From: a virus
IMG/VR virus record: IMGVR_UViG_3300032296_003307
Location: 62,001 to 126,000 of that record
Length of the DNA stretch: 64,000 nt
Strand: one strand, 5' to 3'
Part shown: piece by piece, positions 16,211 through 56,873 of the stretch
Position numbering within the stretch: position 1 is the stretch's first letter
Layout: each line of letters opens with the position of its first letter
The notes under the pieces: generated by a model
What the model saw: the letters and a program-made list of their open reading frames with translations, nothing else
The model's database searches: none
Told to the model about the DNA's origin: nothing
Translations under genes and position numbers: made by a program

Positions 16211-16212
16211 TT

Positions 16213-17426: not shown

Positions 17427-17439
17427 TATTTATTAAAAA

Positions 17440-17685
17440 ATGAAACCAAAATTAACTTATTTTTATAGCGATACCTGCCCCAAATGCAGTGAATTAGAAC
17501 CCCTAGTAAAAGAATTAGAACAATTATTTGAAATTACTTATGTAGATACTTACGAAGATGATCTACTTACAGAATCAAACAACATTGAATGGATTCCTAC
17601 ATTTGTGTTGGAAGATAAAGATGGAAAACATAAATTTGAAGGCGCAAAACAAATTAAAGAGTTTTTAAGAAAAATCATTTCATGA
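17440..17685 (+). CDS. Glutaredoxin/thioredoxin-like protein
   Basis: An 81-residue redox protein with a CPKC active site (13-16) and cis-proline segment WIPTFVL. It is the second small thioredoxin-like protein in 2 kb and overlaps the next gene by 4 nt. It probably serves the ribonucleotide reductase or another nucleotide enzyme. Confidence 0.75.
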   Translation: MKPKLTYFYSDTCPKCSELEPLVKELEQLFEITYVDTYEDDLLTESNNIEWIPTFVLEDKDGKHKFEGAKQIKEFLRKIIS

Positions 17686-18182
17686 TACTATTTACAGAAA
17701 AAGAAATCCAAAACAAAGTAGGAGAGATTGCCTACAACCTTAAAAAAAGACATCACGAGGAACCTCCTGTGTTTATATGCGTTTTAAACGGCGCTTTCAT
17801 GTTTTTTACGGACTTGGTGAAACACATGGAAGATTGCCATATAGACTTTATACGCGCGAAATCTTACGAAGGAACCACACAGGGTGAAATATACATTACC
17901 AAACAAATAGAAAGTGATATTACTGGAAAAGATGTTTATTTGGTTGATGATATCTATGATTCAGGTAATACTATGAATCGTTTGATAAAAAACATTAGTT
18001 ATGGTAATCCAAAATCAATTACCCCAGTAACATTGTTTAAAAGACATACCTCCAAAAACCCTGATCTAATTTATGGTTTTGATTTAGAAAATGAATACTT
18101 TTTAGTGGGTTATGGTTTGGATGGAGAAAATGATTTAAAAAGGAACCAAAAATACATCACTGGTATAATGAGTGAAGATTAA
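17682..18182 (+). CDS. Purine (hypoxanthine-type) phosphoribosyltransferase
   Basis: A 166-residue type I PRTase with the PRPP-binding loop VYLVDDIYDSGNTM and the upstream RAKSYEGTTQGEI region typical of hypoxanthine/guanine PRTases. It would salvage purine bases to nucleotides. Beside folE it may feed GTP into the 7-deazaguanine route or recycle displaced guanine; that link is inference. Confidence 0.82.
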   Translation: MILFTEKEIQNKVGEIAYNLKKRHHEEPPVFICVLNGAFMFFTDLVKHMEDCHIDFIRAKSYEGTTQGEIYITKQIESDITGKDVYLVDDIYDSGNTMNRLIKNISYGNPKSITPVTLFKRHTSKNPDLIYGFDLENEYFLVGYGLDGENDLKRNQKYITGIMSED

Positions 18183-18188
18183 TTTTAA

Positions 18189-18218
18189 TTTGGTTTTTAT
18201 AAAAAATATTATTATATT
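18189..18218 (+). promoter_or_regulatory. Promoter TTTG-N20-TATATT for folE
   Basis: TTTG at 18189-18192 and TATATT at 18213-18218, spacer 20 nt, 6 nt before the ATG at 18225. Confidence 0.7.
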
Positions 18219-18224
18219 ATTGTT

Positions 18225-18959
18225 ATGACTATTGAAAATAAAAGAAGAAAAATTATTGATGTAGAAAAACTTGAACTGGCTCAACCTGGTTTTGCTAATG
18301 GTATTTCACTTCAGTTAGACAAAGTAATTAAAAATGGTGAACACCGTTCACTTACTGAAAATGAAAAATACGATATCATTGACAAAGCAGAAAAAGCATA
18401 TGGTGAGTTTTTAGATGCTTTAGGTGTTGATTGGAGAAACGATCCCAATTCAATGGAAACTCCTCGTCGTGTAGCAAAGGCTTATGTACTGGATTTGTGG
18501 AAAGGTCGTTATGATGTTCCTACTGAAATTACTGCTTTCCCAGCAGATGGTTACAATGGAATTATTTTAGAAAGAGATATTCCTATTGTAAGTATGTGTT
18601 CACACCACCACCAAGCTATTTTAGGAAAAGCCCACGTTGCTTATGTTCCTGGAAAAGATGGTAAGGTAATTGGATTGAGTAAATTGAACCGAATTGTAGA
18701 ACATTATGCTCGTAGAGGTGCTATTCAAGAACAACTTACAGTTGCTATTCACAATGCAATTAATGAAGTATGTGAAGGCAATATTGGAGTAATGGTTGTA
18801 GTTCATTCATTCCACAATTGTGTTTCATGTCGTGGTATTAAACATTTTGGAGCATCAATGGTTACAAGTGAAGTATCAGGTGTATTTGCTGACCACACCA
18901 AAACAGCAAAACAAGAAGTTATGGATATGTTAAAATTTAATATGGAGGGTTACAGATGA
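18225..18959 (+). CDS. folE: GTP cyclohydrolase I
   Basis: A 244-residue FolE enzyme converting GTP to dihydroneopterin triphosphate, the first step to 7-deazaguanine. Zinc ligands are Cys125 and His128 (MCSHHHQ) and Cys199 (HNCVSCRGI); the catalytic H-rich loop and the HFGAS end are conserved. A roughly 50-residue N-terminal extension precedes the core. It overlaps the next gene by 4 nt. Confidence 0.92.
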   Translation: MTIENKRRKIIDVEKLELAQPGFANGISLQLDKVIKNGEHRSLTENEKYDIIDKAEKAYGEFLDALGVDWRNDPNSMETPRRVAKAYVLDLWKGRYDVPTEITAFPADGYNGIILERDIPIVSMCSHHHQAILGKAHVAYVPGKDGKVIGLSKLNRIVEHYARRGAIQEQLTVAIHNAINEVCEGNIGVMVVVHSFHNCVSCRGIKHFGASMVTSEVSGVFADHTKTAKQEVMDMLKFNMEGYR

Positions 18960-24068: not shown

Positions 24069-24392
24069 ATGAAACTAGAAGCATTATACAACGCAGTTAT
24101 CGTAAAACCTATTGAGGCAGAAGAAACCTCTTATGGTGGAATTATTGTTCCCGATTTGGGAAATGAGAAAAACAAACTTGGTAAAGTAGTAGCAGTTGGT
24201 AAAGGTTATTATTCAGTAACTGGAGCTTGGATTGAAACTGTACTAAAAGTTGGAGAAACTATTATTCTTCCTACTATGGGTTTTAGCAAACTAGAACACG
24301 AAGGAGAAGAGTATTGGATTGGTCCTGAAAACCAAGTACTAGGTAAACTAGTAGATGAAACTGAAGAAACAGAAGAAGAACTACCCTTTTAA
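24069..24392 (+). CDS. groES: GroES-like co-chaperonin
   Basis: A 107-residue Cpn10 protein (KLEALYNAVIVKPIEAEETSYGGIIVPD...GKVVAVGKG). The mobile loop region around 17-30 is recognisable. T4 encodes only a distant GroES substitute (gp31), whereas this looks like a true GroES. The acidic tail ends EEELPF, like the gp32 tail. It pairs with the groEL gene 12 nt downstream. Confidence 0.88.
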   Translation: MKLEALYNAVIVKPIEAEETSYGGIIVPDLGNEKNKLGKVVAVGKGYYSVTGAWIETVLKVGETIILPTMGFSKLEHEGEEYWIGPENQVLGKLVDETEETEEELPF

Positions 24393-24397
24393 TTTAA

Positions 24398-26014
<1,617 letters not shown>

Positions 26015-30110: not shown

Positions 30111-31547
30111 ATGAATTCAAGTTTTGCTTATTTGCCTCCTGACAAAAGGAAAAAGATTATGCTTATTTGTGATGATATTCGAGTTCACTCGGGTATAGCA
30201 ACAGTAGGCAGAGAAGTAGTTATTCACACAGCCCAACATTTTAATTGGGTTAACATTGGAGGAGCCATTAACCATCCTGAAATGGGAAAACGTTTGGATC
30301 TTTCTCAATCAACAAACGATACAACTGGATTGAAAGATTCATCTGTAATAATGTATCCTGTTCATGATTATGGAAACCCTGATCTTTTAAGACAACTAAT
30401 TCAGATTGAAAAACCTGATGCAATAATGTTGATTACTGATCCTCGTTATTTTGTTTGGTTGTTTTCAATGGAAAATGAAATTAGAAAACACATTCCAATT
30501 GCTTACCTTAATATTTGGGATGATTATCCTGCTCCTCACTACAATAAAGCTTTTTATGAGGCATGTGATTTGTTGATGGGAATTTCAAAACAAACAGTAA
30601 ATATCAATAAATTGGTTTTGAGAGAAAAAGCAGCCAATAAAATCATTAAGTATGTTCCTCATGGTTTGAACCACGAAATTTTTAAACCAATTGACAAAAA
30701 CGATTCTAAATTAAAAGAATTTAAGAAAACCTTATTCAAAGGTAAAGAATATGATTTTGCTCTGTTGTTTAACTCTAGAAACATTAGAAGAAAACAAATT
30801 CCAGATACCATTTTATCTTACAAATACTTTATTGATTCTCTTCCAGTTGAAAAAGCTAAAAAATGTGCTTTAGTTCTTCATACAGAACGTGTAAGTGATC
30901 ATGGTACTGATTTGGATGCTGTTATTGAATTGCTTTGTAATGATGAAAAATATAATATTATCTTTACAGATGCAAAATACGATCCAATATCAATGAATTT
31001 GCTTTACAATAGTACTGATTGTCAAATCCTTTTGACCTCAAACGAAGGTTGGGGATTGAGTTTGACAGAAGCTATTTTGTGTGGTAATCCTATTATTGCA
31101 AATACAACAGGTGGTATGCAAGACCAAATGAGATTTGAAGATGAAAATGGAAATTGGTTTACACCATCATCAAAAATCCCTTCTAACCATAGAGGTACTT
31201 ACAAAAAACATGGTGAATGGGCATTTCCAGTTTATCCCGTAACACGTACTCTTGTAGGTTCACCTCCCACTCCTTACATTTGGGACGACCTTTGTAAAGC
31301 AGAAGATGCAGCTCAACGTATTATGGAAGTTTATAATTTAACCCCTGAAGAACGTAAAGCTAGAGGTTTAAAAGGTAGAGAATGGGCAATTGGAGAAGAA
31401 GCAGGTTTTACAGGAGAAACTCAAGGTAAAAGAGTAATAGATGCTTTTGATGAATTGTTTACCACCTGGAAGCCAAGAGAAAAATATGAATTGATAAATG
31501 CAAATCAAGTAGAAGATAGAACCTTAAACCACGAATTATTATATTAA
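30111..31547 (+). CDS. GT-B glycosyltransferase
   Basis: A 478-residue glycosyltransferase of the GT1/GT4 architecture. The N-terminal Rossmann part starts KIMLICDDIRVHSGIATVGRE; the C-terminal donor-binding part has SNEGWGLSLTEAILCGNPII and the E-x7-E pattern (GWGLSLTEAILCGN). It probably transfers a sugar to a virion or host-surface glycan or to modified DNA. An HNH gene separates it from a second GT-B enzyme (32275). Confidence 0.83.
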   Translation: MNSSFAYLPPDKRKKIMLICDDIRVHSGIATVGREVVIHTAQHFNWVNIGGAINHPEMGKRLDLSQSTNDTTGLKDSSVIMYPVHDYGNPDLLRQLIQIEKPDAIMLITDPRYFVWLFSMENEIRKHIPIAYLNIWDDYPAPHYNKAFYEACDLLMGISKQTVNINKLVLREKAANKIIKYVPHGLNHEIFKPIDKNDSKLKEFKKTLFKGKEYDFALLFNSRNIRRKQIPDTILSYKYFIDSLPVEKAKKCALVLHTERVSDHGTDLDAVIELLCNDEKYNIIFTDAKYDPISMNLLYNSTDCQILLTSNEGWGLSLTEAILCGNPIIANTTGGMQDQMRFEDENGNWFTPSSKIPSNHRGTYKKHGEWAFPVYPVTRTLVGSPPTPYIWDDLCKAEDAAQRIMEVYNLTPEERKARGLKGREWAIGEEAGFTGETQGKRVIDAFDELFTTWKPREKYELINANQVEDRTLNHELLY

Positions 31548-31558
31548 AATGAAATCCT

Positions 31559-31598
31559 TTTGACACTCATACATATTTATAACAAAATGAGTGTCAAA
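31559..31598 (+). repeat. 12-bp inverted repeat spanning the HNH start
   Basis: TTTGACACTCAT (31559-31570) and ATGAGTGTCAAA (31587-31598) are perfectly complementary. The 16-nt loop contains TATTTATA (31574-31581), and the right arm ends on the A of the endonuclease ATG. It may control HNH expression. Confidence 0.6.
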
Positions 31599-32251
31599 TG
31601 GATTATCAAAAAATATACCACCAAATAGTAGAAAGAGCAAAAAACAGAGTGTTAGAAGGTTATAAAGAAAAACATCATATTATTCCTAAATGTTTAGGTG
31701 GTAGTAATGATAAAAATAACTTAGTGGAACTAACAGCTAGAGAACATTTTTTATGTCATATGTTACTTTGTGAAATATATCCTAACGAAAATAAATTAAG
31801 ACATGCTTTATTTTTAATGGCTATAGGAAAGAAAAAAATTAAAGAAAAAACATATGTTATAAGTTCAAGAGTATATGAAAGATTAAAATGTGAATATTCT
31901 CAAATGTTAACTGGTAAAAAACAATCTGAAGAAACAAGAAATAAGAAATCCAAATCCATGATAGGTCATTCTATGTATACTGAAGAATGGAAACAAAAAA
32001 TAAGTAAATCTAATACTGGAAGAGAAATAACATGGGGTGATAAAATATCTTCTTCTTTAAAAGGAAGAAAAATTGATTGGGATAGAGGAATAAATAAAAC
32101 TATCATACAGTATGATTTAGAAGGTAATTTTATTAAAGAATATTCCTCAATAAATGAAGCTAAAAGACAAATCAAAGGAGATATAGGAGCCATGCTTTCA
32201 GGAAGACAAAAAACTGCTGGTGGTTATATTTGGAAATTTAAAGAAAATTAA
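31598..32251 (+). CDS. HNH homing endonuclease with NUMOD modules
   Basis: A 217-residue homing enzyme. The HNH core is KHHIIPKCLGGSNDKNNLVEL...REHFLCHMLL (25-56). Two NUMOD3-type repeats (GKKQSEETRNKKSKSM, EEWKQKISKSNTGRE) and a C-terminal NUMOD1-type helix-turn-helix (YDLEGNFIKEYSSINEAKRQ...GGYIWKFKEN) follow, as in Seg/HNH homing enzymes. It is inserted between two glycosyltransferase genes. Its final codons contain the TTTG box for the next gene. Confidence 0.92.
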   Translation: MDYQKIYHQIVERAKNRVLEGYKEKHHIIPKCLGGSNDKNNLVELTAREHFLCHMLLCEIYPNENKLRHALFLMAIGKKKIKEKTYVISSRVYERLKCEYSQMLTGKKQSEETRNKKSKSMIGHSMYTEEWKQKISKSNTGREITWGDKISSSLKGRKIDWDRGINKTIIQYDLEGNFIKEYSSINEAKRQIKGDIGAMLSGRQKTAGGYIWKFKEN

Positions 32252-32258
32252 TTATATT
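32229..32258 (+). promoter_or_regulatory. Promoter formed by the HNH 3' end
   Basis: TTTG at 32229-32232 lies in the codons for YIWK of the HNH protein; TATATT is at 32253-32258, spacer 20 nt. It drives the glycosyltransferase at 32275. Confidence 0.65.
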
Positions 32259-32274
32259 ATTTAAAATAAAAAAC

Positions 32275-33570
32275 ATGAATAAGCCGTTATTTGTAATAAG
32301 TTGTGCCTATGATACCTATAGTGGGTATGGGGCTAGAAGTCGCGATTTGGTTAAAGCCATTATTGAAACAGACAAATATGAAGTTAAATTGATGTCTCAA
32401 AGATGGGGAAATACACCTTTTGGATTCTGCAAAGACAATCCCGAATGGACATTCTTATCAAGCCATAACCTACCTAACAATCAGTTGACTCAACAACCTG
32501 ATATTTGGATGCAGATTACTGTTCCAAATGAATTCCAACCAGTAGGAAAATTTAGTATTGGTTGTACAGCAGGTATTGAAAGTACAGTTGCTCCTGGTGA
32601 TTGGATTGAAGGAATAAATAGAATGAATCTGACTTTAGTTTCGTCTGAATTTTCTAAAAAAGTGTTATTGGATTCCAAGTTTGAAAAAAGAAACAAACAA
32701 ACCAATGCTTTAGAAGCTCATGTTCAAGTTGAAAAGCCTCTTGAAGTATTGTTTGAAGGAGCCAACACAAACATCTATAAACAAACAGATGAACCTTGTT
32801 TAATTGATTTCAATATTCCAGAATCATTTGCTTACTTGTTTGTAGGCCACTGGATGGAAGGTGATTTGGGAGAAGATAGAAAAAATGTAGGATTATTAGT
32901 TAAAGCATTCTATGAAACATTTAAAAACAAACCTAAAAAACCAGCTTTGATTTTGAAAGCAGCTCAAGTAGGTGCCTCTTATGTTGATAGAGAAAGTATT
33001 TTAAATAAAATTAAACAAGTTCGTAAAACAGTAAATTCAAAAGATCTACCAAATATTTACCTTTTACATGGTGAATTTTCAGATGAGGAAATGAACTCTC
33101 TTTATAACCATTCTAAAGTAAAAGCAATGGTTAGTTTGACTAAAGGAGAAGGATATGGTCGTCCATTACTTGAATTCACTTTAGTTAAAAAACCTTTAAT
33201 ATGTTCAGGTTGGTCAGGACAAATGGACTTTTTAAATCCTGAATTTACTAATTTGTTAGGAGGTACTTTAACTCCTGTTCACCCAAGTACTAAAAATCAG
33301 TTCTTGATTGAAGGTTCTCAATGGTTCTCTCCTGATCATGGTCAAATAGGTTTTTATTTGAAAGATGTTTTTGAAAACTATAAAAACTATACTGAAAAAG
33401 CAAAACGCCAAGCCTACAAATCAAAAACAGAATTTAACTGGGATAAAATGAAGGAAAAAGTAGATGAATTATTTACTCAATACATTCCTGAGTTCCCAAA
33501 ACAAGTTCCTTTAGCACTTCCAAAATTAAAGAAAATAGAGTTACCCTCTTTGAAAAAAATTGAATCCTAA
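32275..33570 (+). CDS. GT-B (GT4-type) glycosyltransferase
   Basis: A 431-residue glycosyltransferase. The N-terminal start has CAYDTYSGYGARSRDLVKA and the C-terminal donor site has SLTKGEGYGRPLLEFTLVKKP (read as two parts: SLTKGEGYGRP and LLEFTLVKKP). It ends in a short Pro/Lys-rich repeat (LPKLKKIELPSLKKIES). Together with 30111 it opens the sugar island. Confidence 0.8.
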   Translation: MNKPLFVISCAYDTYSGYGARSRDLVKAIIETDKYEVKLMSQRWGNTPFGFCKDNPEWTFLSSHNLPNNQLTQQPDIWMQITVPNEFQPVGKFSIGCTAGIESTVAPGDWIEGINRMNLTLVSSEFSKKVLLDSKFEKRNKQTNALEAHVQVEKPLEVLFEGANTNIYKQTDEPCLIDFNIPESFAYLFVGHWMEGDLGEDRKNVGLLVKAFYETFKNKPKKPALILKAAQVGASYVDRESILNKIKQVRKTVNSKDLPNIYLLHGEFSDEEMNSLYNHSKVKAMVSLTKGEGYGRPLLEFTLVKKPLICSGWSGQMDFLNPEFTNLLGGTLTPVHPSTKNQFLIEGSQWFSPDHGQIGFYLKDVFENYKNYTEKAKRQAYKSKTEFNWDKMKEKVDELFTQYIPEFPKQVPLALPKLKKIELPSLKKIES

Positions 33571-33573
33571 TAA

Positions 33574-33606
33574 AAGGGGTATATTTGGAAATATAAAAAT
33601 AATTAA
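33574..33606 (+). pseudogene. Remnant of an HNH/NUMOD endonuclease C-terminus
   Basis: Read in frame, the bases give KGYIWKYKNN-stop, matching the end of the intact endonuclease at 32251 (GGYIWKFKEN-stop). The following AATTAATTACATT also matches AATTAATTATATT after the intact gene. The body of the endonuclease is gone. Confidence 0.65.
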
Positions 33607-33613
33607 TTACATT
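33584..33613 (+). promoter_or_regulatory. Promoter derived from the endonuclease remnant
   Basis: TTTG at 33584-33587 (in the YIWK codons of the remnant) and TACATT at 33608-33613, spacer 20 nt. It is the last clear promoter before the long sugar operon and so may serve 33621 to about 44364. Confidence 0.65.
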
Positions 33614-33620
33614 TAATAAT

Positions 33621-34082
33621 ATGAATTTTGATGAATTAACAATATGTCCTCGATGTGGAGGAGATGCCAATTATGTAGATGAAGTAAATGAAAGCATATC
33701 TACTCAGTTTTGCTTTTCATGTGGTTTTCAAACCAACTCATTAATGAAAGAAGGTGAAACCTTTTATGAAGAACAAATTTCAATTTTACCTGAGCTTTAT
33801 AAAGATTTGCTTTACAAAGATGAAAATGAAAATGTTTGGATGCCAACTACAGTAAATGTTCCTACTCAAGGAATGATATTTGCAAATGGTCCTTCTAAAG
33901 AACAATGGAAATGGGCAGCTGTAAAAGCAATTCAAGTAACAGAAGAAGAAAAAACTAAATACCCTATCCCAGGAAAACAAGGACAATACTATGAATGGAG
34001 AATGGATATGACAACTTTGAAAGAATATCATGAGCGTGAGTTTATGGATTGTTTAAGCTATATTGGAGTACTTCCAGAATGA
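33621..34082 (+). CDS. Zinc-ribbon protein, conserved in T4-like phages
   Basis: A 153-residue protein with an N-terminal zinc ribbon (CPRCGGDANYV...FCFSCGF, about 9-35) and a tail containing WMPTTVNVPTQGMIFANGP. Similar proteins occur in many T4-like phages without known function. It overlaps the next start by 4 nt. Confidence 0.65.
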   Translation: MNFDELTICPRCGGDANYVDEVNESISTQFCFSCGFQTNSLMKEGETFYEEQISILPELYKDLLYKDENENVWMPTTVNVPTQGMIFANGPSKEQWKWAAVKAIQVTEEEKTKYPIPGKQGQYYEWRMDMTTLKEYHEREFMDCLSYIGVLPE

Positions 34083-34687
34083 TTAGCTTGGCTATAACTG
34101 TATGTAATGAAGCTCATGAGCTAGAAACACTACTAACTTATTTAGAAGATAGAGCTTTATCTCATGAATATGAAATAGTAATTCAAATTGATAAAGACAA
34201 TCACACCGATGAAGTATTGAGTGTTATTGTCAACAGAGGAATAAAACATTGGTTTTATCCTTTAAATAAAGACTTTGCTGGTTACAAAAATGAATTAGCA
34301 AAACACTGTTCAGGAGAATATATCTTCCAAATCGATGCTGATGAAATTCCAGCAATAGAATTACTTGATATACTTCCAGGCATATTAGAAAGTAATCCTG
34401 AGGTGGATGTATACTTAGTTCCTCGGATTAATACCGTAAGTGGTATCACCGAGGAACATATCCTGAAATGGGGTTGGAAATATGAAAATGAAAGAGTAAA
34501 TTTTCCTGATTATCAGTGGAGAATTTATAGAAACTCTCCTTCAATAAAATGGATAAATAAAGTTCACGAGCGTTTGGAAGGTTATAAACTATTTAGTACA
34601 TTACCTCCACAGGATGAATTCTGTTTATTACATCCAAAAACAATAGAAAGACAAGAAAAACAAAACCAGTTTTATAATACATTGTGA
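34079..34687 (+). CDS. GT2-family glycosyltransferase
   Basis: A 202-residue GT-A enzyme starting MISLAITVCNEAHELETLLTYL... (the ATG at 34079 gives the canonical N-terminus; the upstream ATG at 34049 lies inside the previous gene). The metal-binding DxD is in FQIDADEIP, and the late W-x-N-K-V-H-E-R segment is typical of this subgroup. Confidence 0.82.
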   Translation: MISLAITVCNEAHELETLLTYLEDRALSHEYEIVIQIDKDNHTDEVLSVIVNRGIKHWFYPLNKDFAGYKNELAKHCSGEYIFQIDADEIPAIELLDILPGILESNPEVDVYLVPRINTVSGITEEHILKWGWKYENERVNFPDYQWRIYRNSPSIKWINKVHERLEGYKLFSTLPPQDEFCLLHPKTIERQEKQNQFYNTL

Positions 34688-35496
34688 AAATAAAAGCAGC
34701 TCATTTTGATAAAAATGTATTTGAAGATAAATTAAAACATTTGTCTCATTTAGATTTTTCTCTATTTATTGATACTCCCCCTCAATCCCAAGATGAATTA
34801 TCTCCAATAAACATCATCTCGTTCCAGGAACCAAATGAATATTTTGGTCTTCATGATTGGACTATTCAAAATAAAGACCTATTTCAAATTATTTTAACTC
34901 AAAGTGATAAAGTATTAAATAATTGTGATAATGCTGTTTATCAACCTTTTGGACATACTTGGTTACAACCAAATCAATATGAAAAAAAACATAAAAAAGA
35001 ATTTAAAATAGCTCATCTTCAAGGTAAGTTACTTAAAACATATGGTCATTCTTTAAGACATGAAGTAACAGCTAGAAAAAATGAATTTAATATTCCTACT
35101 AAGTTTTATGAAACATATGGAGACAGAAATAATATTGAAGATGCTCGTTTAGGCAAAGAATTTATTTTTGGGGGTTCTCAATTTGGAGTGGTAATTGAAA
35201 ATACTTCCCATAGAGGTTATTTTACTGAAAAAATATTAGATTGTTTATTATTGAAAACAATTCCTTTATATTGGGGTTGCTCAAATATAGGTGATTATTT
35301 TGATATAGACGGTATTATACCGTTTAATAATGTAGATGATTTAATTTACATATCAAATAATTTAACTGAGGAATTTTATGAATCTAAAAAAGAAATAATT
35401 AATAAAAATTGGAAATTGGCTTTAAATTACGTAAATTATGAACAAAATATAGTTAACACAATTACAAACATTTTTAAACACAATAATATTATATGA
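34684..35496 (+). CDS. GT10-type fucosyltransferase-like protein
   Basis: A 270-residue protein starting at GTG. It carries the GT10 signature FGVVIENTSHRGYFTEKILD followed by LLLKTIPLYWGCSNI, as in alpha-1,3-fucosyltransferases. It would transfer a deoxyhexose from a nucleotide donor. Overlaps of 4 nt on both sides place it in the operon. Confidence 0.82.
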   Translation: MKIKAAHFDKNVFEDKLKHLSHLDFSLFIDTPPQSQDELSPINIISFQEPNEYFGLHDWTIQNKDLFQIILTQSDKVLNNCDNAVYQPFGHTWLQPNQYEKKHKKEFKIAHLQGKLLKTYGHSLRHEVTARKNEFNIPTKFYETYGDRNNIEDARLGKEFIFGGSQFGVVIENTSHRGYFTEKILDCLLLKTIPLYWGCSNIGDYFDIDGIIPFNNVDDLIYISNNLTEEFYESKKEIINKNWKLALNYVNYEQNIVNTITNIFKHNNII

Positions 35497-36635
35497 AAAA
35501 AATATGGTATGCTCCTTATAAATTTGAATCTTATGGGGAAGAAGAAATTAAAGCAGTAGAAGAATCACTCCGTTCAGGATGGTTAGGTGGACAAGGTCCA
35601 AAATCTGTTGAGTTTGAAGAAAAAATAGCAAAACGTTTTGGAAAAAAATACGGTGTATTTGTTAATTCAGGCTCTTCGGCTTGTTTACTTGCATTAGCTA
35701 GTTTACAATTACCAAAAGGTACTAAAGTAATTACTCCTGCTTGTACGTTTTCCACAACATTAGCACCTATTATTCAACTAGGACTTATTCCGGTATTTGT
35801 AGATGTAGGGTTAAATGATTATGTAGCAGATATTGAACAAGTGATAGAGGCTGTTACTCCTGAAGTAAAAATAATTATGTTACCTAATTTAATTGGTAAT
35901 AAACCAGATTGGAAAAAATTAAAAAATGATTTAAAATATTTAGGTAGAAAAGATATAATATTAATTGAAGACTCAGCAGATACTGTAACCTATACTCCTG
36001 AATCCGATATTGCTACAACTAGTTTCTATGCTTCACATGTTATCACAGCTGGTGGTTCAGGTGGGATGGTAATGTTTAATGATAAAAAATTAGTAAATGT
36101 TTGTTTACAATTTAGAGATTGGGGTAGATTAGGAGGTGATTCTGAAATTATGTCTGAACGTTTTAATCATATGGTAGATGGTATTCCTTATGACCATAAA
36201 TTCTTGTATAGTGTCTTAGGATATAATTTTAAATCATCTGAAATGAATGCTGCTTTTGGTTTAGTTCAATTAGAACGTTTTAAAACATTCGAACAAATTA
36301 GAAGAGCAAATGTTGAGCGTTATATTGAAAATCTTAAAGATGTAGAAGAAATTTTGTTACCTGATGATTCAATTAAACCAAATTGGTTAGCTATTCCTTT
36401 GCAAACTGAAAGACGTTTTGAACTACTTAACTTCCTTGAAGATAATAACATCCAAACCAGAGTAACCTTTGCTGGAAATGTAACACGTCACCCTGTTTAT
36501 AGAGAATATCTACAAGAATTTACTAATTCAGATACTATTATGAAAAACGGATTCTTGTTAGGTGCTCATCATGGAATGACTATCGAGGATGTAGATTATG
36601 TTTGTGATAAAATCAAAGAATTCTTTAAAAAATGA
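35493..36635 (+). CDS. PLP-dependent sugar 3-dehydrase (DegT/RfbH/ColD type)
   Basis: A 380-residue DegT-family enzyme. At the usual PLP-lysine position it has His182 (SFYASHVITAGGSGG), the hallmark of the 3-dehydrase branch (ColD, RfbH) that removes C3-OH from a 4-keto-6-deoxy sugar instead of aminating it. RDWGR, YDHKF and GYNFKSSEMNAAFG also match RfbH-like enzymes. No Fe-S cysteine set is seen, so a ColD-like reaction is more likely. It points to a 3,6-dideoxy or branched sugar. Confidence 0.83.
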   Translation: MKKIWYAPYKFESYGEEEIKAVEESLRSGWLGGQGPKSVEFEEKIAKRFGKKYGVFVNSGSSACLLALASLQLPKGTKVITPACTFSTTLAPIIQLGLIPVFVDVGLNDYVADIEQVIEAVTPEVKIIMLPNLIGNKPDWKKLKNDLKYLGRKDIILIEDSADTVTYTPESDIATTSFYASHVITAGGSGGMVMFNDKKLVNVCLQFRDWGRLGGDSEIMSERFNHMVDGIPYDHKFLYSVLGYNFKSSEMNAAFGLVQLERFKTFEQIRRANVERYIENLKDVEEILLPDDSIKPNWLAIPLQTERRFELLNFLEDNNIQTRVTFAGNVTRHPVYREYLQEFTNSDTIMKNGFLLGAHHGMTIEDVDYVCDKIKEFFKK

Positions 36636-37240
36636 TAGATTTAAAAAAACGTATATTAGAAATAGCCTATAAAAATAAATTAAGTCACTTGGGTTCATAT
36701 CTCTCTAGTTTAGAAATAATAGAAGAAATATACAAAAAGAAAAACCCAGAAGACATATTTATCTTATCTTCAGGACATGCTGCTTTAGCTTTATATGTTG
36801 TTTTAGAAGCATATGAAGGTAGAAATGCTGAAGAATTATTTAAAAAACATGGTGGTCATCCTCATAGAGATGAAAAAAACGGATTGTATTGCTCCACAGG
36901 AAGCTTAGGTTTGGGGATAACAATAGCAGTAGGTAGAGCATTAGCTAATCCGAAACGTAAAGTTTATGTTTTGATTAGTGATGGTGAAGCTGCTGAAGGT
37001 TCCATTTGGGAATCTTTAAGATTTATTTATGAACAAAATATAAAAAATATAGAAGTATATGCTAATATAAATGGTTATGCTGCTTATGATAAAATAGATG
37101 TTGAATATTTAAGTAAAAGATTATTATCTTTTTTACCTAACATAAATCTACGTTATACATCAGTAAACCAATATCCCTTTTTAAAAGGTATAAATGCTCA
37201 TTACCATGTAATGTCAGAGGAGGACTATAAATTAATATGA
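36632..37240 (+). CDS. Transketolase-like N-terminal (TPP-binding) subunit
   Basis: A 202-residue protein covering the TPP/Mg-binding half of a transketolase: LSSGHAALALY, GGHPHRDEKNGLYCSTGSLG and SDGEAAEGSIWESLRF (about 118-133). It is shorter than usual N-terminal subunits (about 270 aa). The partner half is the next gene. Split transketolases in sugar clusters can add two-carbon branches. Confidence 0.82.
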   Translation: MIDLKKRILEIAYKNKLSHLGSYLSSLEIIEEIYKKKNPEDIFILSSGHAALALYVVLEAYEGRNAEELFKKHGGHPHRDEKNGLYCSTGSLGLGITIAVGRALANPKRKVYVLISDGEAAEGSIWESLRFIYEQNIKNIEVYANINGYAAYDKIDVEYLSKRLLSFLPNINLRYTSVNQYPFLKGINAHYHVMSEEDYKLI

Positions 37241-37707
37241 GAAAAGAATTCGCTTCAATACTCCATTCAGAAATGTCTCAAAATGAAAATATTATTTTGT
37301 TAACTGGAGACTTAGGGTATGGAATGTGGGATAAAATTAAAATAGATTATCCTGATAGGTTTTATAATACTTTATCAGCTGAACAATTAATGATGGGGGC
37401 AGCCATAGGAATGGCTATGGAAGGTAAAATTCCTATAGTTTATTCAATAACTCCTTTTGCTATTTATAGACCATTTGAATTAATAAGAAATTATTTGAAC
37501 CATGAAAATATACCTGTAAAAATAGTAGGTGGAGGTAGAGATAAAGAATATGGATACTTAGGTTTTTCACACTGGGCTGAAGAAGATATTGATGTTTTGT
37601 CAAATTTTAAAAATTTGGCCTTATTTAAACCAAAAGAATTCTCTGATAAAATATTTAGTGATTTTTTATATAACCAGAAACCATCTTATTTAAATTTGTC
37701 TCGATGA
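37237..37707 (+). CDS. Transketolase-like pyrimidine-binding subunit
   Basis: A 156-residue protein with the central transketolase domain only: LLTGDLGYG, NTLSAEQLMMGAAIGMAMEG (the conserved Glu is in SAEQ) and PIVYSITPFAIYRPFELIRN. The C-terminal third domain of complete enzymes is missing. It is translationally coupled to 36632 and probably forms a heteromer. Confidence 0.82.
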   Translation: MRKEFASILHSEMSQNENIILLTGDLGYGMWDKIKIDYPDRFYNTLSAEQLMMGAAIGMAMEGKIPIVYSITPFAIYRPFELIRNYLNHENIPVKIVGGGRDKEYGYLGFSHWAEEDIDVLSNFKNLALFKPKEFSDKIFSDFLYNQKPSYLNLSR

Positions 37708-38483
37708 AAATATTAATCACAGGGGGTAATGGATATATAGGTAAGTCATTATATAATGCTTTAAAAGATAAATATGATGTTACTTCTGTAAGTCGAAAAG
37801 ATTTTGATTTAACTGCTTTTGAAGCAATGAATAAATTTTTTCAAGGAAAATATTTTAATGTAGTTATTCATTGTGCTGTTGTAGGAGGTAGTAGATTAAA
37901 AACAGATTCACATAAAGATATGGATGTGAATTTAGTTATGTATTATAATCTCCTTCAACATAAACCCCATTTTAACAAATTAATACATTTTGGTTCAGGA
38001 GCAGAAATACATAATCCTGAATCCCCCTATGGTTTAAGTAAAAAAGTTATATCCAATTCAATATCTGAAATAGATAATTTTTATAATATAAGAATATATG
38101 GGGTATTTGATGAAAATGAATTAGACACTAGATTTATTAAAACTTGTATTAAGAAATACATTAATAAAGAACCAATGTTAGTTCAAGATAAGAAAATGTC
38201 CTTTTTTTACATGAAGGATTTAATAACATTAGTAGATTATTATATCCAATCTTCCCCAAGTACATTATTAAAGGAAAGCAATTGTGCCTATATCAATTCA
38301 ACATCTTTATTAGATATAGCTAATATTATAAATGAATTAGAAGATTATAAAGTTCCTATTTACTTGGATACACAAGTAGGTAAAGATTATGAATCAAAGT
38401 ATAATGCTCCTTACGGATTAAAATACATAGGACTAAAACAAGGTATTATAGAAACATATAATAAATTAAAAAATGAATATTAA
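37704..38483 (+). CDS. NAD-dependent epimerase/reductase (extended SDR)
   Basis: A 259-residue short-chain dehydrogenase. The NAD-binding motif is ITGGNGYIG (4-12) and the active-site YxxxK is in SPYGLSKK. It probably reduces or epimerises the sugar made by the 3-dehydrase and transketolase pair just upstream. It overlaps genes on both sides. Confidence 0.83.
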   Translation: MKILITGGNGYIGKSLYNALKDKYDVTSVSRKDFDLTAFEAMNKFFQGKYFNVVIHCAVVGGSRLKTDSHKDMDVNLVMYYNLLQHKPHFNKLIHFGSGAEIHNPESPYGLSKKVISNSISEIDNFYNIRIYGVFDENELDTRFIKTCIKKYINKEPMLVQDKKMSFFYMKDLITLVDYYIQSSPSTLLKESNCAYINSTSLLDIANIINELEDYKVPIYLDTQVGKDYESKYNAPYGLKYIGLKQGIIETYNKLKNEY

Positions 38484-39414
38484 AATAATGTTCCATATAA
38501 TGCCATGGGATATAGATTGCGCATTATTAGTTTTTGATAAATTAAAACAATCTTCTTATTTTATTGATAATGAAGATAAAATTTATATTGATTCTTTTTT
38601 AAATTTATCACATGATATTATTGATTGGGATAATTCTTCGTTCCCAAAAGAATATTTTATTAAAAAATACCAAATATTAGATGATTTAGTTAAAGATATT
38701 TTTGTACATAAACCTTTTGTATACGATAAAGAAGGTATTTATGGTCATTTAGATTCTCAAAAAACTATAATCGAACCCCACATTGATTATTATGTAGGAT
38801 TATGTCCTGATGTTGACTTTCAAGAACATCTTCTCTATTACCTAATAGAATCAGCAAAACAGATAAAAAATGAATACTTTGTTTTAACTCCACAAATATT
38901 TAAAAGTTGGGATTCAAGTTGGGACCTTTTAGTAAATGACAAATTTCAAAATATTCCCTACAATCAATGTTATAATATTGATATCCATAAAATAAGACAT
39001 GATTGTTTAGAATTAGATACTCCTGCACTTAAACTTTCTCCTGGTTTTAAATTTGCTGGTTGGCTTGATTTGTATAGTAAAAATTTTTATGAAAAATTAA
39101 TACCTACTTTAGATGAATGGAAAGGATATGGTCCTTGGGATTTGTATGCTATGAATGTGTGTAATATTGCAAAATCTAAAGGAGTAGATATTGAACAATA
39201 TATTTTAGAAAATCAAGTAATATGGTTTAAAGATGTAGGTTGTTGGCAAAATGAAGAAGAACATGCAGGTCATGGAAAAATAAGATTAATTTATAAAGAT
39301 TTTTTAACACTAAAACTTGGAAGACAAGAACAAAGATCATACATTGATAAAAATCTTCTTCATTATTTAAATAAATGGATAGAATACGCTAAAAATAATA
39401 ACATAATTAAGTAA
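38473..39414 (+). CDS. Sugar-island protein of unknown function (possible glycosyltransferase)
   Basis: A 313-residue protein (MNIKIMFHIMPWDIDCALLV). The long alpha/beta sequence includes YVGLCPDVDFQEH and a C-terminal HAGHGKIRLIY, which might belong to a divergent GT-A fold. No firm motif. It overlaps the SDR by 11 nt. Confidence 0.55.
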   Translation: MNIKIMFHIMPWDIDCALLVFDKLKQSSYFIDNEDKIYIDSFLNLSHDIIDWDNSSFPKEYFIKKYQILDDLVKDIFVHKPFVYDKEGIYGHLDSQKTIIEPHIDYYVGLCPDVDFQEHLLYYLIESAKQIKNEYFVLTPQIFKSWDSSWDLLVNDKFQNIPYNQCYNIDIHKIRHDCLELDTPALKLSPGFKFAGWLDLYSKNFYEKLIPTLDEWKGYGPWDLYAMNVCNIAKSKGVDIEQYILENQVIWFKDVGCWQNEEEHAGHGKIRLIYKDFLTLKLGRQEQRSYIDKNLLHYLNKWIEYAKNNNIIK

Positions 39415-39417
39415 AAC

Positions 39418-40113
39418 ATGAAAACAATTACAACGTATGAAGATCTAGTTCAAGATCTTATCGACAACAAAATTACAATGGTCCGTCCAGATGAATTCAA
39501 AACAATATTTAAACATTATCCCAAAATATCTGAGGTTGAAGGTGATATAGTAGAATGTGGGGTTTGGAGAGGTGGGTTTTCAATATTTCTAAGTTATGTA
39601 TTTCAAGATAAAAATATTTGGGTATGTGATTCATATGAAGGATTTCAACCTTTAGAAACAGCTAAACATAAATACGATAAAGAAAGACATACTCCTCAAT
39701 TTACACATAACGCTGTAGGTCCATTAGGTATTAGTTTAGAAGAAGTTCAAACCCATTTTAGAAATTATGGTTTAGGAGATCAAGATCGAATTAAATTTTT
39801 AAAAGGATTTGTTAAAGATACTTTACCAACTTCAGGAATTGAGAAAATAGCTTTATTAAGAATAGATGTAGACGCATATTCAGCTACATTAGAAACTTTA
39901 GAAGAATTATATGATAAAGTTCAACCTGGAGGGTATATTATATTTGATGATTCTTGTTTATATGAAACTCTAGATGCTATTAAAGCATTCTTTAAACAAA
40001 GAAATTTACCCGAATTTATAAACCATCCAGTGACTAGTCAACCTTTAAATATTAATGAAAAACACACTAATGATAATTCAGGGTTACCAGCAGGATGTTA
40101 TATTGTAAAATAG
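39418..40113 (+). CDS. TylF/MycF-type O-methyltransferase
   Basis: A 231-residue SAM-dependent methyltransferase. Motif I is GDIVECGVWRGGFSIF, and WVCDSYEGFQP and ALLRIDVDAYSATLETLEEL with IIFDDS match the macrocin/mycinamicin O-methyltransferase family, including the metal-binding Asp residues. It probably methylates a hydroxyl of the deoxysugar. Confidence 0.83.
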   Translation: MKTITTYEDLVQDLIDNKITMVRPDEFKTIFKHYPKISEVEGDIVECGVWRGGFSIFLSYVFQDKNIWVCDSYEGFQPLETAKHKYDKERHTPQFTHNAVGPLGISLEEVQTHFRNYGLGDQDRIKFLKGFVKDTLPTSGIEKIALLRIDVDAYSATLETLEELYDKVQPGGYIIFDDSCLYETLDAIKAFFKQRNLPEFINHPVTSQPLNINEKHTNDNSGLPAGCYIVK

Positions 40114-40120
40114 ATAAGAT

Positions 40121-40828
40121 ATGAAAAAAACACTAACACAAATCGCAAATTCAATTGGAATTGATAAAGGAACAATTGCAAATTCATGTCATGGATTTAC
40201 AAAAATGTATGATGATATATTAACTCCTTTAAGAGAAAAACCTATTATTATGTTAGAAATAGGAGTATCTGGAGGTGGTTCTCTTAAAATGTGGGAAGAA
40301 TATTTTTCAGATGCTATAATTATCGCTCTAGACATTGTTAATGAGACTCATTTATCAAATGATAAAACTTTTGTTTACCAATTAGATCAATCTGATGAAA
40401 CTCAATTACAAAATTTTGTAAATCAATGTAAAGAAAATGGATACGAATTTGATTTTATTATTGATGATGGAAGTCATCATATGCGAGATCAACAATTAAC
40501 ATTAGCTTATCTCTTTCCATTATTAAAGTCTCAAGGAATATATGTTATAGAAGATCTCCATACATCTTTACTTCCTAACGGTTATTCATTATATGGAAAA
40601 CTTACAGAAATTTCCCCAGATAGACATAATACCACATTAAATTATCTTTCTCATGGTATAAATAGTATTTATATTACCCCAGAACAAAATATGTATTTAA
40701 ATAAAAATATTGATTCTATTAATATACATAATATATTTAATCCTATTATAGATACATGGCATGAATCTTTAGGTGTAGGAAAACCATATATGGGAAGAAG
40801 TATAACATCCTTTATAATTAAAAAATAA
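40121..40828 (+). CDS. Class I methyltransferase (cephalosporin/rhamnosyl O-MT type)
   Basis: A 235-residue methyltransferase with IMLEIGVSGGGSLKMWEEYF as motif I, IIALDI, DFIIDDGSHHMRDQ and YVIEDLH. The DDGSHH segment is characteristic of sugar O-methyltransferases such as those in tetracenomycin synthesis. It is the second of three methyltransferases in a row. Confidence 0.8.
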   Translation: MKKTLTQIANSIGIDKGTIANSCHGFTKMYDDILTPLREKPIIMLEIGVSGGGSLKMWEEYFSDAIIIALDIVNETHLSNDKTFVYQLDQSDETQLQNFVNQCKENGYEFDFIIDDGSHHMRDQQLTLAYLFPLLKSQGIYVIEDLHTSLLPNGYSLYGKLTEISPDRHNTTLNYLSHGINSIYITPEQNMYLNKNIDSINIHNIFNPIIDTWHESLGVGKPYMGRSITSFIIKK

Positions 40829-40832
40829 GAAT

Positions 40833-41414
40833 ATGAAAATAATTCAAATAGGAGCTAATAATGGAAAGGATAATGTTTTTGATTTTATTAAAGAAAACCA
40901 AAAATCTTTAGAGTTAGCAATATTAATAGAACCTATACCTTTTATTATTGACGAATTAAAATTTCAATATAAAGATATAAATAATGTTATAGTAGAAAAT
41001 ATAGCTATAACTGATGAGGAAAATCTTGAAAAAATGACTTTGTATTATTTAGGAGACAGTAATTATGAGGTAAGTTCATTCAGTAAGAATCATGTTATAA
41101 CCCACAAACCCCCAGGCTCATCATTCCCCTTAGAATCATTAGAAGTTTCTTGCTTAACTATTAATAATATTATGACTAAATATGATCTGGAAGTAATAGA
41201 TTATCTATTTATAGATACTGAAGGATTGGACGTTCATATAATAGCTAGTATCGATTTTGCAAAATATAAAATTAAAAATATAATATTTGAAGCTGTTCAT
41301 ACTGATGGAGCATTTAGTAGAGGTGAAAATTTTAATAAAATATGTAACTATTTAAATCAATTAGGGTATAATTTATCAAATATGGACCAATTAAATATAA
41401 AAGCCAGTCTATGA
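40833..41414 (+). CDS. FkbM-family methyltransferase
   Basis: A 193-residue protein. IIQIGANNGKDNVFDFI is a short SAM-binding motif; LIEPIPFIIDEL, VENIAITDEE and DYLFIDTEGLDVHII are FkbM-family features. It is short for the family. It overlaps the next gene by 4 nt. Confidence 0.77.
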   Translation: MKIIQIGANNGKDNVFDFIKENQKSLELAILIEPIPFIIDELKFQYKDINNVIVENIAITDEENLEKMTLYYLGDSNYEVSSFSKNHVITHKPPGSSFPLESLEVSCLTINNIMTKYDLEVIDYLFIDTEGLDVHIIASIDFAKYKIKNIIFEAVHTDGAFSRGENFNKICNYLNQLGYNLSNMDQLNIKASL

Positions 41415-42148
41415 AAATCATCTACCGTATCTCAGACACAGGTTATAACAAAGTAAAACCAAATTACGTTAACAATGAAAATTGTTTGAGAAATTTCTGT
41501 AATGTATTTTTTGATCATATTTATGATATTATAGTTTTAGCAGACAATTGTAGTGAACCTACTTTAGATATAATTAAAAAATTTATTGACCCAATCAATA
41601 TAGAAAAAGTATCTGTAGGACATGGTGCTGGAACTTTTAATTTGGCTTTAGATAAAGCATTAAAATGGGAAGATGATGAAATAGTTTACTTTGTAGAAAA
41701 CGATTATATTCATTTACAAGGTTCTCCCCAAATTATAAAAGAAGGAATTAAATTAGGAGCACCTTATGTTACTTTATATCTTCATCCTGATAAATTTATG
41801 TCACCTTCTCAAGGAGGTAATCCTGAGGTTGATGAAGATGGAGGTTATTTAACAAGAATTTATAGAGGTGAAACTCAATTATTTGGAATGTTTAATAGCA
41901 CAACTATGACTTTTGCTTCAACAGTAAAAACATTAAGAGAAGACGAATCTATTTTAAGAAAACATACCAACAAAGGTCATTATCCTGATGATTTTAAAAT
42001 GTTTTTGGAGTTAAGAGATAATGGAAAAGCATTATTGTGTCCCTTAAATACTTTTTCCACTCATGGAGAAACAAATTGGTTAGCTCCTTTATATAAAGTA
42101 AAACAAGAAAACCTAGTTGAGGAATGGAAAAAGCATATATTTCAGTAA
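41411..42148 (+). CDS. Probable GT-A glycosyltransferase
   Basis: A 245-residue protein (MKIIYRISDTGYNKVKPNYV) with a GT-A-like pattern: DIIVLADNCSEPTLDII, then VGHGAGTFNLALDKAL and VYFVENDYIHLQG, where ENDY may replace DxD. It lies between the methyltransferases and a clear GT2 gene, which it overlaps by 25 nt. Confidence 0.65.
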   Translation: MKIIYRISDTGYNKVKPNYVNNENCLRNFCNVFFDHIYDIIVLADNCSEPTLDIIKKFIDPINIEKVSVGHGAGTFNLALDKALKWEDDEIVYFVENDYIHLQGSPQIIKEGIKLGAPYVTLYLHPDKFMSPSQGGNPEVDEDGGYLTRIYRGETQLFGMFNSTTMTFASTVKTLREDESILRKHTNKGHYPDDFKMFLELRDNGKALLCPLNTFSTHGETNWLAPLYKVKQENLVEEWKKHIFQ

Positions 42149-42903
42149 TAATACCTACTTATAAATCACCAGAGGCACTTGATTTGTGTTTACGTTCGGC
42201 TATTGAAGGACAACAAAACAAAAACCAAATCATAGTAGTGGTTGATGGTTTTTATGATTTAAATAAAGAGGTATTAGAAAAATGGAGTCAACATATTGAT
42301 ATTCTAAATTTAGAAGAAAATGTTGGTTTGTGTAGAGGTACTAATTTAGGTGTTTACAACTCTCAGTACGACAAAATACTGATAGTGAATGATGATAATA
42401 TTTTTCCTAAAAATTGGGATGTTGATTTACTAAATTCCTATAAGGAAAATAGTGTTATCTCTCCTAACCAAATTGAACCTATTCCCTCTATATTCAAACA
42501 ATTTAAAATTGAAAATTTAGGTCGTGACCCAAAAACATTTGATTTGGAGGCTTTTTGGGATTATGCTTCAAAAACTTCTTCTCAATTAAACGAGGAATCT
42601 GGCTCTACTTTACCTATATTCATGAAAAAATACGACTATTTAAAAGTGGGAGGTTGGGACGAAAATTATGATATGGGAGTTGTAGCCGATTGGGATTTCT
42701 TTCTAAAATGCACTATCTCAGGAATGAAAATGATAAGAACATATAGTTGTCATTTTTATCATTTTGTTTCTCTAACCACTATGACCCCAGAAAAAGAACA
42801 ACAAAGAAGACAATCAGAACAAAATGGTCATGAATATGCAAAATACAAATGGGGTAGTTATATTTATTCTCATCCTGAAACTAATTTAAAATTTATTCTA
42901 TGA
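42124..42903 (+). CDS. GT2-family glycosyltransferase
   Basis: A 259-residue GT2 enzyme: ISVIIPTYKSPEALDLCLRS, VGLCRGTNLGVYNS, the DxD-type ILIVNDDNIFP and the late VGGWDENYDMGVVADWDFF. It is the last enzyme of the sugar island. Confidence 0.85.
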   Translation: MEKAYISVIIPTYKSPEALDLCLRSAIEGQQNKNQIIVVVDGFYDLNKEVLEKWSQHIDILNLEENVGLCRGTNLGVYNSQYDKILIVNDDNIFPKNWDVDLLNSYKENSVISPNQIEPIPSIFKQFKIENLGRDPKTFDLEAFWDYASKTSSQLNEESGSTLPIFMKKYDYLKVGGWDENYDMGVVADWDFFLKCTISGMKMIRTYSCHFYHFVSLTTMTPEKEQQRRQSEQNGHEYAKYKWGSYIYSHPETNLKFIL

Positions 42904-43423: not shown

Positions 43424-43720
43424 ATGAAAAATTGTGTTAAATGTGGAGGGATGATTCCTGAGGGAAGACTCAAAGCACTACCAGGAACTAAAACATGTGT
43501 GAATTGCTCTAGTGCCAAAATGAAAGGTACAGTAACAGTAATGAAAGGTGAGGGAGATCACACTTGGATTGAAACTATTCATTTGGAACATGAAGACTAC
43601 AAAGCCTATGTTGAGGCAGAAAACAAAATGAGAAAAGGAGGAATGAGATTACTTGACGATCCTGACGATAGTAAAGATGTTCCTTACGGATTCCACGAAA
43701 CAAAAATAGATAAAGAGTAA
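43424..43720 (+). CDS. DksA/TraR-type zinc-finger protein
   Basis: A 98-residue protein with CVKCGGMIPEGRLKALPGTK and then CVNC (4-29), the C4 zinc finger of DksA/TraR proteins. It lacks the long coiled coil of DksA, so it may be a reduced regulator. Its stop overlaps the next start (TAATG). Confidence 0.75.
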   Translation: MKNCVKCGGMIPEGRLKALPGTKTCVNCSSAKMKGTVTVMKGEGDHTWIETIHLEHEDYKAYVEAENKMRKGGMRLLDDPDDSKDVPYGFHETKIDKE

Positions 43721-44364
43721 TGCCAAAAGCAAGACCACTTGGTAAAGAAATGATTTTAGCTGCAATGGCTAAAACTAAATCAAATCGTAGTGCTGCTCGC
43801 TATTTGAATTGTAGTTATATTCATTATAAAATGTGGGCAAAACGATATGATGCAACCGAACCTGGTTATGCTAATTTATTTGAACAACATAAAAACCAAT
43901 CAGGCAAAGGTATTCCCAAATTCTTAAGCAACGGAAAACCAAGAAGTGATTTTTCTTTATTAGACATTATTGAAGGAAGAGTAGATCCCTCCTCTTTTAA
44001 CCCAGATAAAATTAAATGGAGATTGTTACAAGAGGGTTATATGAAAGAGGAATGTTATTCATGTGGTTTTCATGAGCATCGAGTTTTGGATTACAAAATG
44101 CCTCTTTTATTAAATTTTAAGGATGGCAATAAACAACATTACAGACTAGAAAATTTGGAAATGCTTTGTTACAATTGCTATTTCCTCCAAATTGGCAATT
44201 TATTTACTGATAAACAATTAGAGGGAATAGAGGATCACGTTGTTAAAAATGAATCTAAAGTTGATTGGGAAGTAGATTCTTATACCCAAGAACGTTTACG
44301 AGAACTAGGATTGTATGATCCTAAGCCTCTTGACGATGGTAGTGAGTATATATCTCGTTTGTAA
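43720..44364 (+). CDS. HTH protein with a degenerate HNH module
   Basis: A 214-residue protein. The N-terminal helix-turn-helix is LAAMAKTKSNRSAARYLNCS then YKMWAKRY. The C-terminal half has an HNH-like zinc module (CYSCGFHEHRVLDYKMPLLL; FKDGNKQHYRLENLEMLCYN; CY), but the catalytic His of the family (HIDGN) is Phe (FKDGN) and the last His is Tyr. It therefore probably binds DNA without cutting, perhaps as a regulator. Confidence 0.7.
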   Translation: MPKARPLGKEMILAAMAKTKSNRSAARYLNCSYIHYKMWAKRYDATEPGYANLFEQHKNQSGKGIPKFLSNGKPRSDFSLLDIIEGRVDPSSFNPDKIKWRLLQEGYMKEECYSCGFHEHRVLDYKMPLLLNFKDGNKQHYRLENLEMLCYNCYFLQIGNLFTDKQLEGIEDHVVKNESKVDWEVDSYTQERLRELGLYDPKPLDDGSEYISRL

Positions 44365-56714: not shown

Positions 56715-56873
56715 ATGAATAAAGAAAGAAGAATAATTAAAGTACCTATACCAAAAGAAATTTGGGATGCTGACATGTCAATATGGAATGTACTCTTTGG
56801 AAGAAGATATATTATGAGAGCTTGGATGAATAGTATAAAAGATGTAATTAACCAAATGAGTGATGAACAATAA
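56715..56873 (+). CDS. Small hypothetical protein inserted before thyA, 52 aa
   Basis: MNKERRIIKVPIPKEIWDAD, then a basic aromatic segment and a helical end. It starts in the repeated junction module, overlaps the thyA start by 14 nt, and lies between the truncated and full thyA copies. Function unknown. Confidence 0.53.
   Translation: MNKERRIIKVPIPKEIWDADMSIWNVLFGRRYIMRAWMNSIKDVINQMSDEQ

Follow-up and report, generated by a model that had tools for sequence, protein, structure and literature searches.

A glycan island in an uncultured T4-like phage encodes a split two-domain transketolase and is predicted to make a branched dideoxysugar

Results

The stretch of viral DNA analysed here (the window, 64,000 nucleotides) covers positions 62,001 to 126,000 of IMG/VR record IMGVR_UViG_3300032296_003307, a virus contig of 268,739 bp (G000), and our subject is a glycan island at window positions 30111-42903. 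G000 is a large uncultured T4-like phage, its phage origin being supported by the terminase, portal and tail sheath genes in the same record; the nearest terminases, those of Flavobacterium phages among them, are less than 30% identical. A preliminary description of the window had proposed that the island makes and transfers an unusual methylated deoxysugar, and all the genes it named were found where it had placed them, on the plus strand. The core of the island is an unbroken run of four genes, each pair overlapping by 4 bases: a DegT-fold sugar 3-dehydratase (35493-36635; DegT/DnrJ/EryC1 Pfam match, 1e-72), the two halves of a split mini-transketolase, TktN (36632-37240, 202 residues, transketolase N match) and TktC (37237-37707, 156 residues, Pfam 7.2e-13), and a short NAD(P)-dependent short-chain dehydrogenase/reductase (SDR; 37704-38483; Pfam Epimerase, NAD-dependent epimerase/dehydratase, 5.9e-17). 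The Pfam domain matches and the overlaps bear out the earlier view of a split transketolase and an SDR in consecutive overlapping genes. Because 4-base overlaps join neighbours across 34049-38483, we regard this segment as a translationally coupled operon, and since the block recurs in the same order in related viral contigs, the arrangement of the island is not due to chance.

The genes flanking this core, likewise on the plus strand, include the five or more glycosyltransferases and the three methyltransferases of the preliminary description. Upstream lie two GT-B enzymes (30111-31547, group 1, 478 residues, Pfam PF00534 1.5e-7 and the glycosyltransferase family phrog_2170 1.4e-16; 32275-33570, 431 residues, PF00534 3.3e-5 and phrog_2170 2.2e-23), a GT2 enzyme (34049-34687, 212 residues, PF00535 2.1e-8) and a GT10-like, fucosyltransferase-like enzyme (34684-35496, 270 residues), whose PF00852 match (0.0013) is below the Pfam cut-off and whose gene adjoins GMD in two relatives, L009 and L015. 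A second GT2 enzyme (42124-42903, 259 residues, PF00535 2.4e-15) closes the island. The methyltransferases are a TylF-type sugar O-methyltransferase (39418-40113; PF05711 3.5e-45), an S-adenosylmethionine-dependent member of a phage methyltransferase family (40121-40828; phrog_21658 methyltransferase, 2.7e-24) and an FkbM-type enzyme (40833-41414; PF05050 2.7e-19). A conserved orphan of 313 residues (38473-39414) has no Pfam match; its AlphaFold model (predicted local distance difference test score, pLDDT, 82.6) has GT-A enzymes as top Foldseek matches (E 1.5e-6), and it is probably a GT-A-like glycosyltransferase, at low template modelling (TM) scores of 0.4-0.48. A second orphan without a family match (41411-42148), conserved in five loci, is a possible glycosyltransferase, and a conserved Cys-rich protein of 153 residues (33621-34082), found in 16 loci, has only a sub-threshold Lar match. 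The HNH/NUMOD homing endonuclease at 31598-32251 (Pfam NUMOD1 and HNH) is probably an insertion between the two GT-B genes that stands outside the pathway; no homing endonuclease lies between these genes in the relatives that keep both.

The closest solved relatives of the window DegT protein are two 3-dehydrases, the CDP-6-deoxy-4-hexulose-3-dehydrase E1/RfbH (3bcx, 9e-60; CDP, cytidine diphosphate) and ColD, the GDP-4-keto-6-deoxymannose 3-dehydratase (GDP, guanosine diphosphate), which carries out a deamination half-reaction with glutamate. In an alignment with 3bcx and with viral and cellular rows, H182 of the window enzyme occupies the place of the aminotransferase lysine that binds pyridoxal 5'-phosphate (PLP), in agreement with the earlier assignment of a 3-dehydrase-type PLP enzyme with His for Lys, and every dehydratase-type DegT of the viral loci with a complete stretch has His at this position. 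Unlike E1, the window enzyme lacks the four [2Fe-2S] cysteines (DWGRLGGDSEIM against DWGRDCYCAPGCDNTC), and its RfbH score of 279.1 bits is below the curated cut-off of 423. It shares the His and the absence of the cysteines with ColD, yet its sequence is nearer to E1 (206 versus 143 bits). The relatives fall into three dehydratase groups, each of which forms one side of a well-supported tree branch: group A, the window type, all rows of which are devoid of the iron-sulfur cysteines; group B, E1-like with CxC...C...C, one member of which (L031) scores 463 bits for RfbH, above the cut-off; and group C, ColD-like. Groups A and B occur at corresponding positions, and on the Tkt tree one takes the place of the other five times, which suggests that both deliver the same intermediate. 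The simplest idea for the cluster-free group A is a ColD-like chemistry based on pyridoxamine phosphate (PMP).

TktN, the diphosphate-binding half, and TktC, the pyrimidine-binding half, comprise only the two domains that bind thiamine diphosphate (ThDP); in all members TktC stops after the pyrimidine-binding domain, and no C-terminal (TKC) domain is present. Structure prediction had been proposed as a check on the pair, and the AlphaFold model of TktN (pLDDT 91) matched a split transketolase fold best (6yak, TMq 0.80), and TktC matched the split transketolase 6yaj (1.4e-14). The pair retains the ThDP/Mg motif, the donor-side histidines and the catalytic Glu of transketolases: the invariant alignment columns include the motif (S-D-G-E...N147, the first Gly of GDG being Ser in the window protein), H19, H49 and G-x-H-P in TktN and the Glu of AEQ in TktC. 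A residue equal to H461 is missing from the pair, and the window type also lacks the equivalent of D469. In TktC, R2 and the last residue, R156, fall opposite the arginines with which E. coli transketolase binds phosphate. The conservation of G-x-H-P, R2 and R156 points to a ketose phosphate as the probable ketol donor. No phage split transketolase within a sugar cluster was reported in the open-licence papers that we searched.

With TktN as query, IMG/VR yielded 73 viral loci (53-97% identity), and a search of INPHARED gave nothing above 37% identity. Gene neighbourhoods were compared in 72 of these loci and in the window, 73 in all, L007 being left out as it ends inside TktN. TktC adjoins TktN in all but one of the 73. 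In 69 of them a short SDR is found no more than four genes from the pair; the SDR seen in the window is represented in 35 loci, usually straight after TktC. In 63 of 73 loci an RmlB-like 4,6-dehydratase carrying the STDEVYG and YSATK active-site motifs lies within five genes of the pair, the loci without one being the eight of the window type, L060 and L073. Some loci have methyltransferases and a GT-like gene where others have the 3-dehydratase. In cellular relatives (L093-L109), mostly from Patescibacteria and Omnitrophota, the genes that accompany TktN/TktC encode an SDR, a methyltransferase and a polyprenyl-phosphate-type GT2. Three contigs binned as Thaumarchaeota and Maricaulis (L090, L091 and L092) carry the phage-type module in a phage-like gene order, and are probably misbinned phage DNA.

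We compared a residue of the putative acceptor site in 85 TktC rows. TktC aligns without gaps to the split transketolase 6yaj over GEDGASHQ / GYLGFSHW, the third residue of which corresponds to D469 of E. coli transketolase. In the E. coli enzyme D469 points into the active site and lines the acceptor site, and its replacement alters the acceptor range (PMC5073344). The position is Asp in 44 of the 85 rows and Leu in 38 (the window and 37 others). Nearly all Asp rows (43 of 44) are without a 3-dehydratase; the exception, L060 (7417-11997), has two different Tkt pairs, of which the Leu pair is two genes from the dehydratase and the other pair is of the Asp type. A dehydratase accompanies 34 of the 38 Leu rows: 31 were recognized by motif, L008 has a fragment at the contig edge, and for L012 and L016, which had none in the fetched stretch, the enzyme was predicted to lie farther along the contig and was then found there (group A with 74% identity to the window enzyme in L012, group B with 40% in L016). 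Three of the four remaining Leu rows (L017, L026 and L075) begin at a contig end. When 19 Asp-type contigs were searched whole (up to 180 kb), no His-type enzyme was detected, and the sole DegT match was a Lys-type aminotransferase. In chemical terms, the Asp would contact the hydroxyl beside the acceptor carbonyl and would be superfluous once the dehydratase removes that hydroxyl. On this reading the acceptor carbonyl would be next to C3, at C4.

The recurrent 4,6-dehydratase scores about 300 bits for dTDP-glucose 4,6-dehydratase (dTDP, deoxythymidine diphosphate) versus about 65 for the CDP type; it is closest to the dTDP type, at a score below the equivalog cut-off. Judged by these scores, dTDP is a likelier nucleotide than CDP or GDP, the two that had been put forward; GDP sugars are assigned to the second island described below. 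The phage also encodes RmlC, a dTDP-4-dehydrorhamnose 3,5-epimerase, outside the island (59054-59602, plus strand; NCBIfam TIGR01221, 234.7 bits, cut-off 155.75), which suggests the use of dTDP-4-keto sugars. A CDP route was considered and rejected: TIGR02622 matches the neighbours weakly, and TIGR02623, for CDP-glucose synthesis, never reached its cut-off in 50 viral records.

The second island (L086) lies outside the window, at positions 246172-261731 of G000 on the minus strand, and encodes the GDP-mannose 4,6-dehydratase GMD, a ColD-like His-type DegT, an SDR, an FkbM methyltransferase, a Gfo/Idh oxidoreductase, a hexapeptide acyltransferase and glycosyltransferases, with GMD, the ColD-like 3-dehydratase and the SDR together at 249.6-252.5 kb. 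A PhoH gene adjoins its GMD. Glycosylated DNA was considered as the target of the sugar and appears less likely: the ThyA-like gene is a thymidylate synthase and not evidently a hydroxymethylase, the phage carries a 7-deazaguanine set, and no hydroxymethyl base is indicated. The thymidylate synthase (56860-58014, 384 residues) is longer than usual and was matched in several pieces, so that it likely contains an insertion. The 7-deazaguanine set (QueC, QueD, QueE and GTP cyclohydrolase genes, 14440-18959) possibly serves DNA modification. The phage-made sugar is presumably destined for surface or virion glycans.

Elsewhere in the window, adjoining GroES-like and GroEL chaperonin genes lie at 24069-26014 (GroEL identified by phrog_5725, GroES by sequence only), and an HNH endonuclease gene directly follows the island (43720-44364). 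At least 23 small open reading frames at positions 124676-183715 of G000 have common short leader-like starts, such as MKKIVRLTESDLxRIVKRVLKE, MNLQENIxRIKEMMGLL and MKIIITESQL, which may mark proteins carried in the capsid for packaging or cleavage.

Discussion

The island probably directs the synthesis and transfer of a methylated 3,6-dideoxysugar with a two-carbon branch, a prediction in which we have somewhat more confidence than doubt. The sequences themselves show the gene order, the protein families, the ThDP and His-type active-site residues, how the module recurs, and that the residue at the acceptor site varies with the dehydratase; we infer the nucleotide, the donor, branching at C4, the sequence of reactions and the target of the sugar. 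The pathway would begin with a nucleoside diphosphate-4-keto-6-deoxyhexose, most likely dTDP-4-keto-6-deoxyglucose, the product expected of the dehydratase beside the module in most relatives. The His-type PLP/PMP enzyme would then strip the C3 hydroxyl, and TktN and TktC, forming one ThDP active site, would transfer a two-carbon ketol from a ketose phosphate onto the C4 ketone to give a tertiary alcohol. The SDR would reduce the new side-chain ketone, after which the methyltransferases would O-methylate the sugar and the glycosyltransferases attach it. The likeness to routes for 3,6-dideoxy or two-carbon-branched sugars had been noted before; it holds in that a 3-dehydrase, a transketolase-type carboligase and a reductase share one operon, but the dehydrase is not a plain CDP-type E1. 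The recurrent 4,6-dehydratase neighbour and the dehydrase-linked residue fit the proposed branched sugar and add weight to it. On the whole the earlier proposal is partly supported and right in direction.

Several points weigh against this pathway. Proof that a transketolase can use a ketone as acceptor is still lacking (PMC12247030), and it is conserved transketolase residues alone that lead us to the ketol donor. The cellular relatives have no 4,6-dehydratase beside the Tkt pair. The correlation between residue and dehydratase rests on just two to four independent changes, the tree requiring only three or four changes of the residue itself, and a sign test of it on the tree was not significant, with only two or three independent pairs and thus no power. 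A search of G000 found neither an RmlB-like dehydratase nor a PF00483 nucleotidyltransferase; the activated 4-keto substrate would therefore come from the host, or GDP sugars would be used from GMD onward. In the window phage, step one would accordingly be replaced by a host-supplied 4-keto sugar or by the product of its own GMD.

The dehydratase and SDR could instead make an unbranched 3,6-dideoxyhexose of the colitose or abequose kind, and the Tkt pair would then serve a different sugar in the same glycan by making its precursor, for instance a chain-extended ketose or heptose phosphate. The pair does occur without a 3-dehydratase in Asp-type and cellular loci, hence has a role of its own, and the presumed phosphate-binding arginines R2 and R156 would suit such a product; we nevertheless consider this explanation unlikely, because the pair is near a nucleotide-sugar 4,6-dehydratase in most viral loci and its acceptor-site residue follows the 3-dehydratase, even within one contig. 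It is less probable still that the ThDP pair moves an acetyl unit from pyruvate rather than a ketol, in the manner of YerE-like and alpha-KADH2 enzymes. Characterised deoxysugar branching enzymes do use 2-keto acids (PMC12247030), but the Pfam and fold matches of the pair, like its G-x-H-P and AEQ motifs, are of the transketolase type and not of the YerE-like, single-chain type of the decarboxylase superfamily, and matches to dehydrogenase-E1 folds are weaker than those to transketolases. That the pair is an auxiliary metabolic gene steering host pentose phosphates to nucleotides, as proposed for cyanophage pentose-phosphate genes (which do occur in phages, for example S-SCSM1; PMC9602691), is very improbable and is rejected on context, given that, in almost every locus, a glycan operon surrounds the pair, which is cut to two domains and devoid of the H461 and, in the window, D469 equivalents.

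The predicted pathway to a branched sugar can be set beside several known systems. In the yersiniose A route, reduction follows branching. That route (E1/AscC, YerE and YerF; Yersinia pseudotuberculosis O-antigen) likewise has a 3-dehydrase, after which a ThDP-dependent enzyme adds a two-carbon branch to a 3,6-dideoxy sugar at its C4 ketone (PMC12247030). YerE, however, is a single-chain enzyme of the decarboxylase family that uses pyruvate and a CDP sugar, whereas in the island the transketolase is split, the sugars are probably dTDP-linked and the dehydrase has no iron-sulfur cysteines. The split-gene transketolases of miharamycin and amipurimycin biosynthesis resemble the phage pair in the proposed transfer of a hydroxyacetyl group to a keto sugar, but belong to Streptomyces antibiotic clusters (PMC12247030). 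The active split transketolase of Carboxydothermus hydrogenoformans (6yak, 6yaj) shares the organization of two chains around one ThDP site and is the closest solved structure by sequence and fold (PMC7661550); it differs in having chains of 309 and 341 residues, a third, C-terminal domain and an acceptor Asp, in contrast to 202 and 156 residues and Leu in the phage. The preliminary description held that few phages carry such a route. This stands for the transketolase step, no TktN relative having been found in any cyanophage record of INPHARED, but not for the rest: T4-like cyanophage islands (S-H68, S-SCSM1) encode RmlB, RmlC, GMD, glycosyltransferases and an annotated CDP-sugar 3-dehydratase (PMC9602691). 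Against rarity, too, is the finding that the Tkt pair is common among uncultured viruses.

Glycan islands in T4-like phages are already known; what is new is a split transketolase of two domains that is spread through uncultured viruses and co-varies with the dehydratase. We tentatively propose, as a possibility we hold a little short of even, that TktN/TktC may represent an undescribed family of two-domain transketolases, spread mainly in uncultured viruses and Patescibacteria, that would extend nucleotide sugars by a ketol at their C4 ketone; the residue equivalent to D469 would then record whether the acceptor keeps its C3 hydroxyl (Asp) or has lost it to a 3-dehydratase (Leu or His). According to a 2025 review, the acceptance of ketones by transketolases, which would lead to branched sugars with tertiary alcohols, is an open question, for which 13 Streptomyces sequences, none tested in vitro, are at hand (PMC12247030). 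With the module come dozens of candidates, small, diverse and linked in operons, together with a hypothesis on the acceptor residue, and the question of ketone acceptors becomes directly testable. A branched deoxysugar of the phage's own, as predicted here, would widen the known range of phage biosynthesis.

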